This document shows positions 37,305 to 59,680 of a stretch of 64,000 nt of DNA, piece by piece; position 1 is the first letter of the stretch, and every line of letters begins with the position of its first letter. The DNA is taken from positions 124,001 to 188,000 of the forward strand of contig CP046180.1 in the NCBI GenBank assembly GCA_014075295.1, read 5' to 3'. The position numbers were made by a program, and so were the translations under genes. This DNA comes from Candidatus Mycalebacterium zealandia (GTDB taxonomy: Bacteria; Desulfobacterota_D; UBA1144; Nemesobacterales; Mycalebacteriaceae). The notes under the pieces were generated by a model, which had not been told where the DNA came from, did no database searches, and saw only the letters and a list, made by a program, of their open reading frames with translations.

Positions 37305-38363
37305 ATGGCGAAAAATATACAATTCGGGCTTTCCGCTCCCATGCCGGGAACCGACACGAACGGACTGCTTGAATTTTCAAAAAAGGCGGACAAACTCGGT
37401 TTTGACACAATATGGTATCCCGACCACACGGTTTTTGTGGCTCCGGGAGCGATTGCTCCCGAAGCGTGGACAATCGCTTCGGCTGCAGCGGGAATAACCT
37501 CAAAAATACAACTCGGAACCGTTTCCGACCCGCACAAAATCCAGCCCGCGACCTTCGCCCAGAGACTTGCCACCATTGACCATTTGTCGAAAGGAAGGGT
37601 AACAATCACTATGGGTGTGGGTGAATCAATGAACCTTGACGCGTATGGAATTCCCTGGAACAAGCCGTTCACGAGAATGAGAGAGGCGGTTGAAGTGATG
37701 CAGATGCTGTGGAAAAACGACGAGGAAACTCCGGTGAATTACGATGGCGAGTTTTTCAAACTGAAAGACGCTTTTCTGCAAATCCGCCCGTTTGAGCGCG
37801 ACAGAATTCCGGTCTATTTCGCGACTCACACGCCAAAGGGTCTCGCGCTGACCGGAGAAATGGGAGACGGCTGGCTGCCGATTGATTTGAATCCGTCTCT
37901 TTATGAAAAATATCTGGGCGACATCCATTCCGCCGCCGACAAAGCCGGAAGAAACAGAGACGAAATTGACCCCGCGCTGTGGATTTTTACCTCGCTCGGA
38001 GAGAACGAGGACGAGGCGTATAAAACTCTGGAGCCGTTCAAATACGTGCTGGTTATGCAGGAACAGCTGAAAGCGGCTGGCTACGATGTAAAAATCCCCG
38101 ATGAATACAAAGGGCTGAACTATTTCAACATAGTTCCGCAGGACACAGAAGGCAGGGCGCGTTTCCGCGAAATAGGGCAGTTTTTCCCGCGCGAAGCGAT
38201 TATGGACTTCACAATCACGGGCTCAAAAGACGACTGCATAAAGCGGATTGAAACCTTCATAGATAAAGGCGTGAGAAACTTTGTTCTGTTCTACCGATTC
38301 AGTCCCGACCCTGAAAAAGCGCTTGAAACCTACGCGAAGGAGATAATTCCGTATTTTAAATGA
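37305..38363 (+). CDS. LLM class F420-dependent oxidoreductase (F420-dependent G6PD/Mer-like branch)
   Basis: The 352-residue protein has GLSAPMPGTDTNGLLEFSKKADKLGFDTIWYPDH near the start, then IQLGTVSDPHKIQPATFAQRLATIDHLS and GRVTITMGVGESMNLDAYGI. This resembles the branch with F420-dependent glucose-6-phosphate dehydrogenase and methylene-tetrahydromethanopterin reductase, whose members bind F420. The substrate is unknown. GGAGG lies upstream of the ATG. The stop overlaps the next gene by 4 bp. Confidence 0.88.
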   Translation: MAKNIQFGLSAPMPGTDTNGLLEFSKKADKLGFDTIWYPDHTVFVAPGAIAPEAWTIASAAAGITSKIQLGTVSDPHKIQPATFAQRLATIDHLSKGRVTITMGVGESMNLDAYGIPWNKPFTRMREAVEVMQMLWKNDEETPVNYDGEFFKLKDAFLQIRPFERDRIPVYFATHTPKGLALTGEMGDGWLPIDLNPSLYEKYLGDIHSAADKAGRNRDEIDPALWIFTSLGENEDEAYKTLEPFKYVLVMQEQLKAAGYDVKIPDEYKGLNYFNIVPQDTEGRARFREIGQFFPREAIMDFTITGSKDDCIKRIETFIDKGVRNFVLFYRFSPDPEKALETYAKEIIPYFK

Positions 38364-52564: not shown

Positions 52565-54976
52565 TCACCTGATTTGAGCCCCGAAAAGGTCGCCCAGAGT
52601 GCGGGAGGCTTTTTCGCAAACCGAGTTCGCCTCTTCATCGGTAAGGGTTTTTTTCGCCGAGCGCAAAAGCATTGAAACACCCACGCTTTTCATATCTTTT
52701 CCGACTGATTTGTCCTCAAAAAGGTCAAAAATCCATACGCGCTCAACAAGGGGGCTAACCCCTTGTACACCCGATATTACATTTCCTATTTCCAAATCCT
52801 TTTTCACAAGAAACGCCAAATCGCGCCTGAGCGAAGGGAACTTGGGTAAAGGTGAAAAAACCACCTCGCCGCCACCGTTGCAAGAATAAAGTTTTTCAAG
52901 ACTCAGTTCAAGCGCGACCGCGCCCGCAATCTCAAATGCGCGGGCGGTGTCGGGATGAATCTCGCCAATGTCTCCAATTTCCGTGCCGCCTGCGAAAATC
53001 CGTGCGCTTTTGCCCGGATGAAAATGCTTTTTGTTAGAACCCGGCTTGAACTCCACCGAAAAGAGAAAATCCTCATCGCCGCCCGCGAAAAGCTTCAGGA
53101 TTTTTTCAAACAGCCCCTTCATATCAAAGAAATCAAAGCCCCCGCTTTTCCATAAATCCGGCTCGCCCTCTCCCGCCGCAACCGCGGCAAAAACCCTTTC
53201 CTCTTCAGGCAATTCTCCGTTGCTTTTCGGGAAAAACACCCTGCCTTCCTCAAAAAGCCGCGCGTCCGCACACTGCCTTGAAAGGTTGAATTTGAGATTT
53301 CTCATGAGCCCCGTGAGCAGAGTTGTTCTCATTGCCGACATCTCGTTTGAGATGGGATTGTTAATTCCAAGCGCGGCCTGAGAACCAAAAATCCGTAAAA
53401 GTTCGGGGTTGTCAAAACCGTAGTTCACCGCTTCGCAAAAGCCGGATAGAAGAAAAGCGTTTTTTATCGCGTTTTCCCGTACGGCGCGTCCGCTCACCTT
53501 TTGCGCCGTTACGGTTATGTTGGGCTCGGTCTGCGGGATGGCGTTGTATCCGATAAGGCGTGCCATTTCCTCAAAAATATCGGCTGCGCGCGAAACATCG
53601 GGCCTGAAAGAGGGAATCTTCACGCTAATACCTTCCGAGCCGGACTTTGAAACCTCAAAACCCAAAGAGGTAAGAAGCCGCTCCGTTTCGTCTGAGGGTA
53701 AAGAGGTTCCGAGAGTTTTCCACATTTTTTCAAGAGAGACTTCCACCTCGCGCGGCTCTTCCTTGATTGAATAAACATCGGAAAATCCGCATGGTTCGGA
53801 GCCGCCCGCAACCTGATTTATTATCTCCGCGACCCGTTTGAGCGCGGCCGGAGCGGCGGTTGGGTCAACCCCTCTTTCAAACCTGTAAGACGCCTCGGAT
53901 GACAGTTTAAGCCGTTTGGAAGTCCGCCTGATTTGCGAGGAATTGAAGCACGCGGCTTCAATCAGTATGTTTTTTGTCGATTCGTTCACGCCGGAATCCT
54001 CTCCGCCCATCACTCCCGCGATTGCCACCGGTCCGTTCGCATCCGCTATGACAAGGTCTTCAGCGTCAAGATCATATTTTTCCGAATCAAGCGCCTTTAT
54101 TGATTCGCCCGCGACCGCTCGCCTCACGGTTAGCCCGTTCTTTATGAGGTCCGCGTCAAACGCGTGAAGGGGCTGTCCGAATTCAAGAAGAACAAGATTT
54201 GTAGCGTCAACAAGGTTGTTTACAGGCCTGATTCCGCAGGCGGAAAGGCGGGCTCTCAGCCACAGCGGAGAGGACTCAATGCGGACACCGTCCATGCGGA
54301 CACAGCAGTAGCGCGGACAACCGTCTTTGTTTTCAACATTCACCTTGGCGCCGCCCGTTTTGCCTATTCCGTCCGCGCCGTTTGCAAGAGAGGGCGGAAT
54401 TTTCAAAGCCCCGCCGGTCGCAACCGCTATTTCGCGCGCGATGCCTATGATGCTCAGGCAGTCGGGACGGTTCGGCGTAACGGCAATTTCAAGCACGGTG
54501 TCCTCAACACCCTCAATATCAGCGAGCCGTGTTCCCGGGACGACTGAATCCCGCAGTATCATAATCCCGTCCGATTTGACCGGAGAAAGCCCAATCTCGT
54601 TTTCACTGCAGAGCATTCCGCCCGATTCGCTCCCGCGGATTTTCGCGCGTCTGATTGTCATTCCTTCCGGATTTGAGGCAGTTTGAGGCATCTCCGCTCC
54701 CGGAAGCGCGAGAACGACCATGTCGCCCGCTTTCATGTTTGACGCTCCGCAGACAATTTCGTGAGAGGTTGCGCCGTCCGTAACGGAGCACAGAGACAGA
54801 CGGTCTGCATTGGGATGCGGACGGACTTTCTCCACCCGCGCGGAGACGATTTTATCGTGGGCAAGCGGAGTAATTGAATCCACTTCAAGACCCGCCATCG
54901 TGAGAATCTCCCCGAGTTCAAAGGGGAAAAGGTCAAAATCAACGTATTCTTTAAGCCATTTTACAGTCGTTTTCAT
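52565..54976 (-). CDS. pheT: Phenylalanyl-tRNA synthetase beta subunit
   Basis: The 803-residue protein has the EMAP-II-like tRNA-binding domain (VEKVRPHPNADRLSLCSVTD), B3/B4 editing domain, B5 domain, the inactive core and the C-terminal FDX-ACB anticodon-binding domain (LPKFPSLRRDLAFLVKKD, GVSMLLRSAKKTLTDEEA). It forms a heterotetramer with PheS. pheS is not upstream: the neighbour is MidA on the other strand, 75 bp away. pheT is thus the first gene of pheT-ihfA-DUF502-tilS. Confidence 0.96.
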   Translation of the reverse strand: MKTTVKWLKEYVDFDLFPFELGEILTMAGLEVDSITPLAHDKIVSARVEKVRPHPNADRLSLCSVTDGATSHEIVCGASNMKAGDMVVLALPGAEMPQTASNPEGMTIRRAKIRGSESGGMLCSENEIGLSPVKSDGIMILRDSVVPGTRLADIEGVEDTVLEIAVTPNRPDCLSIIGIAREIAVATGGALKIPPSLANGADGIGKTGGAKVNVENKDGCPRYCCVRMDGVRIESSPLWLRARLSACGIRPVNNLVDATNLVLLEFGQPLHAFDADLIKNGLTVRRAVAGESIKALDSEKYDLDAEDLVIADANGPVAIAGVMGGEDSGVNESTKNILIEAACFNSSQIRRTSKRLKLSSEASYRFERGVDPTAAPAALKRVAEIINQVAGGSEPCGFSDVYSIKEEPREVEVSLEKMWKTLGTSLPSDETERLLTSLGFEVSKSGSEGISVKIPSFRPDVSRAADIFEEMARLIGYNAIPQTEPNITVTAQKVSGRAVRENAIKNAFLLSGFCEAVNYGFDNPELLRIFGSQAALGINNPISNEMSAMRTTLLTGLMRNLKFNLSRQCADARLFEEGRVFFPKSNGELPEEERVFAAVAAGEGEPDLWKSGGFDFFDMKGLFEKILKLFAGGDEDFLFSVEFKPGSNKKHFHPGKSARIFAGGTEIGDIGEIHPDTARAFEIAGAVALELSLEKLYSCNGGGEVVFSPLPKFPSLRRDLAFLVKKDLEIGNVISGVQGVSPLVERVWIFDLFEDKSVGKDMKSVGVSMLLRSAKKTLTDEEANSVCEKASRTLGDLFGAQIR

Positions 54977-56960: not shown

Positions 56961-58358
56961 TTGACACGATCCTGCAAAACAGCAACGGTAGCGGAAGACA
57001 CCATATCCGCAATCTCCACACCGCCCGGCAAAGGCGGAATATGTGTTATCCGAATAAGCGGCGAACGCTCACTCGCGGTAATCCGCGAGATTTTTATGTT
57101 TCACGGGAAACATAGGAACTTTGAGCCGCGCATAATGTATGCCGGAAACATCGTTGACCCCTCGGATAAAACCCTTGTTGACAGCGCGATGTGCGTTTTT
57201 ATGAAGGCTCCCAATTCGTACACGGGAGAGGATTCGGCGGAAATTCACTGCCATGGCGGAACCGCATGTTCGGAGAAGGTAATGGAACTCACTCTGAAAC
57301 ACGGATGCGCTCCCGCCGGACCCGGAGAATTCACACAGAGGGCGTTTCTTAACGGCAAAATGGACCTTGCGCAGGCTCAGGCAGTCGCAGACATCATAAA
57401 CGCGCAGACTGAACTGGGGCTCCGACAGGCGGGGCTACAACTCGCCGGAGGGTTGTCTGAGCGGATAAACAGGACTAAAACACGTCTTCTTGAGCTGCTT
57501 GCGGAAATTGAAGCCCGAATAGATTTTCCTGAGGAGGAAACGGGTGAAGCGGTGGCGGAAAGTCTAAAAAAAGTGGCTGAAAGCGTCCGTGAAAATCTCC
57601 ACTCCCTGCTGTCCACATACGCTGCGGGCAGTCTTATACGTGAAGGCGCCGGAGTTACCATAGTTGGTAGGCCCAATGTAGGCAAATCCAGTCTTATGAA
57701 CGCCTTGCTTGGCAGAGAGCGCGCAATAACAAGCCCTGAACCGGGAACAACAAGGGACTACATTGAAGAGCAAATCTCTATCAAAGGCATAACAGTAAGA
57801 CTCACGGACACTGCGGGAATGAGAAACGCCCAAAGCTCGGCGGAAAAAGCCGGAATTGAAATGGCTCAAGACAAAGCGCTTGGCGCGGATTTGCAGATTC
57901 TTGTGTTAGACGGAAGCAAACCACCCTCCGGTGAAGATGTGAAAATGGTTGAAAAAGCGCCCGAAAACACCGTTGTCTCAATCAATAAAGCGGATCTGCC
58001 GCAGGATGACGGTTTCAAAACGGACAGGTTCGGTGAGAAAAAGACCGTTCACACATCGGCAAAAACGGGTCAAGGTGTTGAAGAACTAAAAGAAGCAGTA
58101 AGAAAAACGCTTATGGAAAACACCGGAACCGTTGAGAGCAATGAAGCGGCTCTGACGGGCATACGCCAGAAACAGGCGGTAGAAACCGCGCTTGAAGCCG
58201 TAAACGTTTTTTTTGCGCTTGTTGAACAGAAAGAATCGCTGGAAATACTGTCAATAAAGGTCAAAGAGGCGATGGATTCACTCGGCGAGATAACCGGCGA
58301 AACTACGACCGAAGAGATGCTCGGAGTTATTTTCGGGAAGTTTTGCATAGGGAAGTAA
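56961..58358 (+). CDS. mnmE: tRNA modification GTPase MnmE (TrmE)
   Basis: The 465-residue protein has the N-terminal formyl-THF-binding domain (DTISAISTPPGKGGICVIRI), the helical domain, the GTPase motifs VGRPNVGKSSLMNAL (G1), TTRD (G2), LTDTAGMR (G3), NKAD (G4) and the catalytic C-terminal CIGK. With MnmG it modifies U34 of several tRNAs. Its start appears to be TTG (56961), as no ATG fits the conserved N terminus; uncertain. A parS-like site lies inside its coding sequence (57097-57112), reading MFHGKH. Confidence 0.96.
   Translation: MTRSCKTATVAEDTISAISTPPGKGGICVIRISGERSLAVIREIFMFHGKHRNFEPRIMYAGNIVDPSDKTLVDSAMCVFMKAPNSYTGEDSAEIHCHGGTACSEKVMELTLKHGCAPAGPGEFTQRAFLNGKMDLAQAQAVADIINAQTELGLRQAGLQLAGGLSERINRTKTRLLELLAEIEARIDFPEEETGEAVAESLKKVAESVRENLHSLLSTYAAGSLIREGAGVTIVGRPNVGKSSLMNALLGRERAITSPEPGTTRDYIEEQISIKGITVRLTDTAGMRNAQSSAEKAGIEMAQDKALGADLQILVLDGSKPPSGEDVKMVEKAPENTVVSINKADLPQDDGFKTDRFGEKKTVHTSAKTGQGVEELKEAVRKTLMENTGTVESNEAALTGIRQKQAVETALEAVNVFFALVEQKESLEILSIKVKEAMDSLGEITGETTTEEMLGVIFGKFCIGK
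57097..57112 (+). promoter_or_regulatory. parS-like partition site 1 (inside mnmE)
   Basis: TGTTTCACGGGAAACA matches the bacterial parS consensus (TGTTNCACGTGAAACA) at 15 of 16 positions. One extra base pair on each side (A and T) extends the palindrome to 18 bp. Identical to the second site at 58763. Confidence 0.6.
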
Positions 58359-58757
58359 CGGGGAAATTGCAATGCTTTTGATACTTTTTTGATTTCAATT
58401 GTGGTTGCGCAGGGAAGTTTTCTTTGGGTGGCGAATTCTTATTCCATAAACCACTATCGCCGCGCCGCATGGAAACTCCGAGTTTGGGTTTTATTTGCGC
58501 TTGGGCTTACATTGAGGGGGTGCCTCTAATGACTGAACGCCACATTTATTTTTCAAGTACACGGAAAAATCATTTCCGCCCAATCGAGCGGACGACACGA
58601 ACTTGGAGCGCGCCCCGAAAACGGCGGAATACGGACGCTCCGGGACATGGCGGAGATGGAAAAATATACACATGGCTTGCGGCGGCAAACGCGACCGTCA
58701 ATGCCAACAAGCACCTGCGCTTAAATGTGGATGAACTGTTGAACCCTTAAGTCTGAA
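58359..58757. other. 399-bp stretch without a clear gene
   Basis: Between the mnmE stop and the second parS-like site I recognise no protein. A possible 73-aa frame (58529-58750, MTERHIYFSSTRKNHF...) has a GAGGGGGTG ribosome-like site but no family resemblance. One near-DnaA box (TGTGGATGA, 58726-58734) lies at its end. The region could be the flank of an origin or partition locus, or relic sequence. Confidence 0.5.
58529..58750 (+). CDS. Possible small protein, 73 aa
   Basis: ATG at 58529 is about 8 nt behind GAGGGGGTG. The protein is basic in its first half (HFRPIERTTRTWSAPRKRR) and ends NANKHLRLNVDELLNP. No family recognised and no conserved neighbour; it may be a chance frame in a non-coding region. 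Confidence 0.25.
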   Translation: MTERHIYFSSTRKNHFRPIERTTRTWSAPRKRRNTDAPGHGGDGKIYTWLAAANATVNANKHLRLNVDELLNP

Positions 58758-58783
58758 GCGAATGTTTCACGGGAAACATTCGC
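58758..58783 (+). promoter_or_regulatory. parS-like site 2, core of a 26-bp palindrome
   Basis: The 16-mer TGTTTCACGGGAAACA (58763-58778) is identical to site 1. Here the arms extend to 11 bp each (GCGAATGTTTC / GAAACATTCGC) around the 4-bp centre ACGG, an almost perfect palindrome. It is followed by an AT-rich run (58784-58804, 18 of 21 A/T). Confidence 0.65.
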
Positions 58784-58809
58784 ATTTCTTCAAAAAAATT
58801 ATCAGGAGG

Positions 58810-58818
58810 TGTGGAAAA
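58810..58818 (-). promoter_or_regulatory. DnaA-box-like 9-mer 1
   Basis: TTTTCCACA on the minus strand, consistent with the TTWTNCACA consensus. First 9 bases of repeat copy A. Confidence 0.5.
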
Positions 58819-58836
58819 GCTAAGGGTCAGGTCTTG
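58810..58836 (+). repeat. 27-nt direct repeat, copy A
   Basis: Starts TGTGGAAAAGCTAAGGG and ends TCAGGTCTTG. Copy B at 58901-58927 is identical except for one C/T change at position 11. The ends GGGTCAGGTCTTG resemble short dispersed repeats known from other bacterial genomes; this is from memory only. Confidence 0.85.
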
Positions 58837-58840
58837 CTTG

Positions 58841-59680
58841 TTACCATTGAAACGCCTTCAACAAAAGGGCTGTCAGTTGTTTGTACGAGTTATCCACAGA
58901 TGTGGAAAAGTTAAGGGTCAGGTCTTGAAGACTAATTTTTTCCACAGGAGTTATTCCCGAAACGGAATTTGTGGCAAAAACAAAGCCCGCCTGAGCCAAA
59001 TCCCCGGGATTCAGACGGGATTCAGATACAGAAAAGCCGTTACGGGCTGCTATATCCATCAGAACGCCTCTTGTGATACCGGGAAGTATCCCGCAGTCGG
59101 TGGAAGGGGTGAAAAGTTCGTTTTTTTCTCCCCAAAAGATGTTACGGCATGTTGTTTCGGAAACACAGCCGTCCGCCGAGGAAAAAAGGGCATCATCAAA
59201 ACCGCTTTCCCGCGCCTCTCTCATTGCCACAACGTTTCCAAGATAGTTCAGAGATTTTATTCCTGCAACAGGGGAACTGCTTCTTGAATATCCGTTAAAA
59301 ACTATTTTCAGGGAAATATCCGCCGGGTTGTCCGTTATTTCGCTTATGGAAATCACGGTTTGAAAATCATCCGGTACGGAAAAAAAAGGCGCGAAAGAAC
59401 CTCCGGAAACAAGACAGACTTTAACGGCACAATCGGAAAAACCGCTTTTTTCAACGCATTCGTTAATTTCTTCAACAATTTTTTTACCGTCCGGGGCGGG
59501 CATTTTTAGAATAAGCGCGCCGTGAGTAATTCTTTCAATATGTTTTTGCAGAAAAACGGGAGATGATTTTTTCCACCTCATTGTTTCAAAAACTCCGTCT
59601 CCGTAAAAAAACCCTCTGGGGAAAATTCCGTTAATATCGGGAACCTGTTTTTTTTCAATGTAAATTCGCTGATTTTTCAT
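58841..59680 (-). CDS. Class IV aminotransferase, probable aminodeoxychorismate lyase (PabC-like)
   Basis: The 279-residue PLP enzyme has GFFYGDGVFETMRW, the PLP lysine in GIKSLNYLGNVVAMREA and SETTCRNIFW, then FATNSVSGITPV. Position next to pabB makes 4-amino-4-deoxychorismate lyase (p-aminobenzoate for folate) the best guess; branched-chain or D-amino-acid aminotransferase share the fold. The last 30 codons lie over the DnaA-box cluster, and the SLQDLTLNFS part is written in repeat copy B. Confidence 0.82.
   Translation of the reverse strand: MKNQRIYIEKKQVPDINGIFPRGFFYGDGVFETMRWKKSSPVFLQKHIERITHGALILKMPAPDGKKIVEEINECVEKSGFSDCAVKVCLVSGGSFAPFFSVPDDFQTVISISEITDNPADISLKIVFNGYSRSSSPVAGIKSLNYLGNVVAMREARESGFDDALFSSADGCVSETTCRNIFWGEKNELFTPSTDCGILPGITRGVLMDIAARNGFSVSESRLNPGDLAQAGFVFATNSVSGITPVEKISLQDLTLNFSTSVDNSYKQLTALLLKAFQW
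58890..58898 (+). promoter_or_regulatory. Perfect DnaA box
   Basis: TTATCCACA, the exact consensus. It is followed after 2 nt by an inverted TTTTCCACA box, forming an inverted pair. This is the only exact TTATCCACA I found in the window. Confidence 0.65.
58901..58909 (-). promoter_or_regulatory. DnaA-box-like 9-mer 3
   Basis: TTTTCCACA on the minus strand, first 9 bases of repeat copy B, inverted to the perfect box. Confidence 0.5.
58901..58927 (+). repeat. 27-nt direct repeat, copy B
   Basis: Starts TGTGGAAAAGTTAAGGG and ends TCAGGTCTTG; one mismatch to copy A, 91 bp away. It lies within the 3' end of the pabC-like gene. Confidence 0.85.
58938..58946 (+). promoter_or_regulatory. DnaA-box-like 9-mer 4
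   Basis: TTTTCCACA on the plus strand, outside the direct repeat and preceded by a T run. Confidence 0.45.

Follow-up and report, generated by a model that had tools for sequence, protein, structure and literature searches.

The cluster of DnaA boxes and the parS-like palindrome that lie between mnmE and a pabC-like gene in the chromosome of Candidatus Mycalebacterium zealandia very probably do not form oriC, which we place in the dnaA-dnaN gap 17 kb away. Judging from its sequence, we think it fairly likely that the element is an origin-proximal parS centromere region combined with predicted DnaA-binding sites. By analogy with the parS region of Caulobacter, it is about equally probable that replication initiation and segregation are coupled or tuned at this element. 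The window analyzed here is a stretch of 64,000 nucleotides (bases 124,001-188,000) of a single-contig chromosome of 1,162,547 bp with 49.9% GC. The genome is designated G000 and belongs to family f1, and its relatives are designated G001-G057 and fall in families f1-f8. The features of the element are as follows, with positions given in the window:

56961-58358, plus strand: mnmE (tRNA modification GTPase; Pfam MnmE_helical and TrmE_N), the left flank, pointing toward the element; its ortholog adjoins parS in order-level relatives.
57097-57112, plus strand: parS-like site 1, TGTTTCACGGGAAACA, in the 5' part of mnmE; one of two sites genome-wide with at most one mismatch to parS.
58726-58734, minus strand: weak one-mismatch box TCATCCACA, probably a chance match; such boxes are common in the window, and the stretch is absent from G001.
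58758-58783, no strand assigned: 26-bp palindrome with parS site 2 (core TGTTTCACGGGAAACA at 58763-58778); parS keeps this position with respect to mnmE and pabC across the order.
58784-58804, no strand assigned: AT-rich run from parS to the first box, with no DnaA-trio.
58799-58836, plus strand: copy 1 of a 38-bp repeat, noncoding; 86.8% identical to copy 2 by self-BLAST.
58810-58818, minus strand: DnaA box TTTTCCACA in the noncoding gap; a box type shared with the dnaA-dnaN origin.
58841-59680, minus strand: pabC-like gene (aminotransferase class IV; Pfam Aminotran_4), the right flank, with three boxes in its 3' tail; the tail is homologous in G001 and other relatives.
58890-58927, plus strand: copy 2 of the 38-bp repeat (self-BLAST), within the pabC tail.
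58890-58898, plus strand: perfect DnaA box TTATCCACA.
58901-58909, minus strand: DnaA box TTTTCCACA, inverted relative to the box at 58890.
58938-58946, plus strand: DnaA box TTTTCCACA.

An earlier note on this DNA had proposed the cluster as a candidate chromosome origin. The boxes it listed at 58890, 58810, 58901, 58938 and 58726 were all found and their strands read, the AT-rich run at 58784-58804 and the 26-bp palindrome are present, the perfect box at 58890 (plus) and the box at 58901 (minus) do form the inverted pair that it described, and mnmE (plus) and pabC (minus) point at the cluster from either side, as it had said. Among the single TTTTCCACA sites that it reported elsewhere in the window, those at 37708 and 50903 were recovered as given, and the third, placed at 53717, is actually at 53716. 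Three features lie beyond its description, namely the second parS at 57097-57112, the pabC tail that extends over three boxes, and the 38-bp repeat.

The 26-bp palindrome pairs at 24 of its 26 positions, and its core, TGTTTCACGGGAAACA, matches the consensus parS, TGTTTCACGTGAAACA, at 15 of 16 positions. The only sites in the genome with one mismatch or fewer to parS are two identical copies that are 1.67 kb apart, both at the mnmE locus. Since the pabC coding sequence runs to 58841, the box at 58810 is the sole box in the noncoding gap; those at 58890, 58901 and 58938 are within a genus-specific stretch of the pabC protein tail. The boxes at 58810 and 58901 are each contained in one copy of the 38-bp repeat, of which self-BLAST found no further copy in the genome, and both copies have recognizable counterparts in G001, a member of the same genus. 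A candidate mobile-element remnant, the AAGGGTCAGGTCTTG repeat, was rejected; it has two exact copies genome-wide, both at the element. The 404-bp spacer that separates mnmE from parS (58359-58762 in the window) is single-copy in the genome and is missing from G001, in which parS comes almost immediately after mnmE. A Pfam search with the ORF at 58424-58750 in this spacer returned no match.

Exact TT[A/T]TCCACA sites occur 78 times in the genome, and more than one falls within 300 bp at just three places: one at mnmE-pabC (four sites, 182.81-182.95 kb), one at dnaA-dnaN (five sites, 200.01-200.17 kb) and one in comEC (seven sites, 287.99-288.28 kb). When boxes were placed at random, no more than 3 fell within 300 bp in 2000 trials. 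Degenerate boxes are a different matter, as the whole window holds 47 matches with up to one mismatch against approximately 28 expected by chance, and the one-mismatch box at 58726 therefore carries no weight. The dnaA-dnaN gap contains four TTTTCCACA boxes and one TTATCCACA box, which makes it plausible that TTTTCCACA serves as a box type in this organism. Domain IV of DnaA has diverged in the genus (FKRDHSTV or NGRDHSTV in G000 and G001 versus GGKDHSTV), alongside the shift of the box from TTATCCACA to TTTTCCACA. The largest cluster, with its seven exact boxes per 300 bp in one orientation, lies in the 3' part of the comEC-like gene next to dnaE (C1:287987-288286, outside the window). Three of these boxes are at corresponding places in G001, where the protein is 58% identical, and it is possible that the cluster is a coding-embedded DnaA titration site.

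The first question to settle is whether the element could itself be oriC. DnaA boxes beside an AT-rich run, together with inverted box pairs that flank an AT-rich center in the relatives, speak for this reading, as does the minimum of the GC skew at 188.9 kb, within 6 kb of the element. The earlier note had offered the skew minimum as a check, and the result upholds an origin-proximal position for the cluster but cannot separate it from the dnaA site. The TA-skew minimum, at 191.7 kb, likewise falls between the two candidate sites, and the plain GC, TA and GC3 skews change too little around the origin to tell 182.8 kb from 200.1 kb. Skewed octamers turn in polarity at 184 kb, close to the element, but this turn is not to be trusted because gene strand was uncorrected and the interval between the sites is nearly balanced (60 versus 47). 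The most strand-biased octamer genome-wide is GGGCAGGG (63 on the leading strand versus 8), which matches the FtsK-orienting KOPS of E. coli (GGGNAGGG). The octamer polarity reverses near 680 kb, which is likely the terminus.

The features that do distinguish the two sites are found at dnaA. The dnaA-dnaN gap (C1:199980-200187, outside the window), with its five exact boxes, also carries DnaA-trios, the 3'-GAT-5' repeats that adjoin boxes at origins (PMC6669920). Box, GC step and trios there form a module (TTATCCACAaATCCACAccccCTACTACTACGACTACTA in G000) that 31 of 32 related loci share, G039 with its shortened dnaA ORF being the exception; 4-6 of 6 triplets are matched at 30 of the 32 dnaA loci, and G001 scores 3 of 6. 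In contrast, no comparable trio run with a GC step was found in the 24 aligned mnmE blocks, where trio scores are low, and the element of G000 scores 1 of 6. At each of three ORF cut-offs, the cumulative coding-strand curve reaches its lowest value at 201,567 (201.6 kb), the upstream end of dnaA. A model of leading- and lagging-strand synonymous-codon usage, trained away from the origin and built, like the strand statistics, on mechanical ORF calls, assigned the interval 182.85-200.15 kb to the left replichore (LLR -49.6) and the interval after dnaA to the right replichore (+13.9); right-replichore test segments were all positive (mean +69, sd 19). When the excluded zone was widened, the model favored a boundary at 200-207 kb over one at 182.8 kb. 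An independent test came from G003 of family f3, since the codon table had been trained on another species. In this genome mnmE-parS is on contig C3 and dnaA on contig C5, and the codon model gave a V-shaped curve whose lowest point is C5:210,002, exactly where dnaN meets dnaA, and a slope that is monotone across mnmE-parS, with no turn. The minima of TA and GC3 skew on C3 had suggested an origin at the mnmE-parS locus of G003, but that candidate was overturned by the strand-corrected codon model. Because the trio module, the coding-strand switch and the codon-usage switch are all at dnaA, the mnmE-parS locus is likely not oriC, and we regard an origin at the element as very improbable. Of the proposal in the earlier note, origin proximity thus survives and identity with oriC does not.

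The element extends well beyond a single genome. MnmE identity is 44-72% in the order-level relatives, and approximately 32-45% in the best named-genome matches (mostly deltaproteobacterial MAGs, approximately 40%). In 38 of 41 order-level genomes, all parS sites (one or two per genome, at most one mismatch) are within about 2 kb of mnmE, and the element usually holds the sole parS of the genome. The mnmE association in the earlier note is upheld, and so is conservation in relatives, which it had named as a check. Families f2, f3 and f5 share a layout in which the mnmE stop is followed by parS, DnaA boxes, an AT-rich center, a TTATCCACAATTCTTCCAC-like box pair and pabC. The same boxes are present in f4 (G004), and in G002 parS is upstream of mnmE. 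A parS followed by a TGTGGAT box within a span of 30-32 bp occurs in 20 of 44 order genomes, representing 11 of 17 genera and families f3, f4 and f5, and does so at most once per genome. The reversed control pattern had zero matches in the 44 order genomes, and the parS-box pattern was absent from all 14 sampled genomes of the sister-class family f8. Over the 190 bp that follow parS, the 24 aligned blocks hold 62 boxes with one mismatch or fewer, versus 2.0 expected and a maximum of 6 in dinucleotide shuffles. The block alignment also has a conserved AATTACAGGnAGTTA-like motif midway between mnmE and pabC, and a similar CAGGGAGTTG past the second box pair.

Conservation of the element is uneven. 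It is present in five of the seven sampled families of the order, or in six when the weakly matching G020 and G030 are included. These two genomes belong to family f6, where they retain a weakly similar block and where the main genus keeps parS without boxes; boxes are therefore not needed for partition in general. At several f6 loci (L098, L100, L101, L105, L110 and L114), parS is downstream of mnmE inside a longer inverted repeat, for example CCCCTGAA-parS-TTCAGGGG, which resembles a bidirectional terminator. Box positions turn over between genera, and the boxes of the pabC tail are degenerate in G001. The G000 copy has most of its boxes within coding sequence and may therefore represent a form of the order-wide element that is degenerating or has been rearranged.

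Do the boxes belong to the origin or to the centromere? In G003, dnaA is approximately 141 kb or more from either end of its contig and parS is on another contig, 10 kb from its end, which places parS more than 150 kb from oriC, and DnaA boxes are still found at parS. The boxes thus track the centromere and not the origin, an argument from distance that comes from one assembly. The partners that a centromere would require are encoded in G000, where an intact parA-parB operon is found at C1:518421-520110. Although parAB lies beside oriC and parS in many bacteria, this operon is 319 kb from oriC and parS; parB (519 kb) scores above the cut-off for ParB_N, and the adjacent ORF, parA, has a KGGVGKTT motif. 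The recognition helix of ParB is GKSRAAITNS or GKSRSAITNH in the genus versus mostly GK[D/E/N]RSTITNQ in the rest of the order, and the parS core is CACGGG in the genus versus CACGTG elsewhere in the order. That both the helix and the site have changed in the same genus is consistent with a site that is used, and it is possible, from these sequences, that the pair is a case of ParB-parS co-evolution with one Noc-like half-site. ParB residues R173 and G201, which have been published as absolutely conserved (PMC7383237), appear to be kept in the alignment of these ParBs.

How might such an element function? If partition proceeds as in the ParABS-SMC family, ParB would nucleate on the two parS sites and then spread, ParA would move the ParB-parS complex, and SMC would be loaded there. 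DnaA may bind the adjacent boxes as it does in Caulobacter, and its level or nucleotide state could then be read at the centromere, such that segregation would be licensed or timed with initiation; local titration of DnaA may supply part of the effect. Control of a promoter by DnaA at the element is unlikely because mnmE and pabC converge on the boxes. Counting against coupling at the centromere are the location of three of the four G000 boxes in the pabC coding tail, the degeneracy of the tail boxes in G001, the lack of boxes in the main genus of f6, their turnover between genera and the absence of the pattern from f8. A bolder proposal, which we advance tentatively and would not yet back, is that several families of a little-studied bacterial phylum have retained a single-parS centromere with fixed-spacing DnaA boxes, even where more than 150 kb came to separate parS from oriC. 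In that case DnaA would act on segregation directly and in a conserved manner, apart from its function at oriC.

Sequestration of DnaA, or a change in its nucleotide state, at a titration or regulatory site similar to datA or to the Bacillus clusters, with parS a neighbor by chance, is the main rival explanation, although it may act together with centromere coupling. The cluster is outside oriC at an early-replicated position, a third cluster is present in comEC, and B. subtilis initiates early when six such clusters are removed (PMC5295017). Plain titration, however, needs neither the short, fixed parS-box spacing of 20 genomes nor the boxes of G003 at a parS far from oriC, and we consider this explanation rather unlikely. 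The loss of the boxes from most of f6, their turnover in genus g1 and a pabC tail that overruns the right half of the block in G000 could suggest a relic of an older origin whose boxes are decaying, and the mnmE/mnmG neighborhood is a common origin site. Decay predicts neither the strong enrichment of the boxes nor the spacing that is kept across families f2-f5, which makes a relic distinctly improbable. The palindrome does score as a terminator-like hairpin, and in most f6 genomes it is inside a longer inverted repeat, but that it is a mere transcription terminator of mnmE with incidental boxes is scarcely credible: f3 and f5 conserve the 16-bp parS core alone, without an extended stem, the palindrome is found nowhere else in the genomes, and a second copy is within the mnmE coding sequence.

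We thus return to the reading of the element as a parS centromere region with predicted DnaA-binding sites. The coordination of initiation with segregation in bacteria is an open question, for which Caulobacter is the example given in the reviews consulted on DnaA acting at a centromere, and our literature search found no paper that joins parS, mnmE, DnaA boxes and oriC. Because the parS-DnaA-box element is order-wide and can be separated from oriC in certain lineages, it provides a natural setting in which to test for direct DnaA action on segregation. The element is also a warning that DnaA-box clusters near parS and a GC-skew minimum can pass for oriC.

Several known systems share features with the element. 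Like an oriC of the B. subtilis type (incC, dnaA-dnaN), it has AT-rich DNA and DnaA boxes clustered above chance, but it has neither trios nor a GC step, and no replichore switch occurs there; the true counterpart is the dnaA-dnaN gap at 199.98-200.19 kb. E. coli datA and the B. subtilis clusters resemble it as DnaA-box clusters outside oriC, whereas their descriptions contain no parS feature. The activity of datA depends on IHF and stimulates hydrolysis of DnaA-ATP. In Vibrio cholerae chromosome II, rctA/parS2 is bound by RctB and regulates initiation rather than segregation. It too is a centromere that binds a replication initiator (at our element, a predicted property), but the initiator is RctB and not DnaA, and the replicon is a plasmid-like secondary chromosome. 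The 16-bp palindrome, the presence of parA and parB, and the origin-proximal, conserved position all agree with a ParABS parS centromere, and boxes adjacent to parS are the arrangement of Caulobacter crescentus. In that bacterium, segregation is promoted by DnaA bound at parS (Mera et al. 2014 PNAS, reviewed in PMC6399470; also PMC6667618), and at low DnaA levels the centromere moves without replication (review PMC6399470). The phyla are different, parS of G000 lies between mnmE and pabC, many of the relatives have a fixed parS-box span, and in G003 (f3) over 150 kb separate the element from oriC; DnaA binding and a role in segregation are demonstrated only in Caulobacter. In both organisms, however, one or two parS sites are accompanied by DnaA boxes that are near oriC but apart from it, at 8 kb in Caulobacter and 17 kb in G000.
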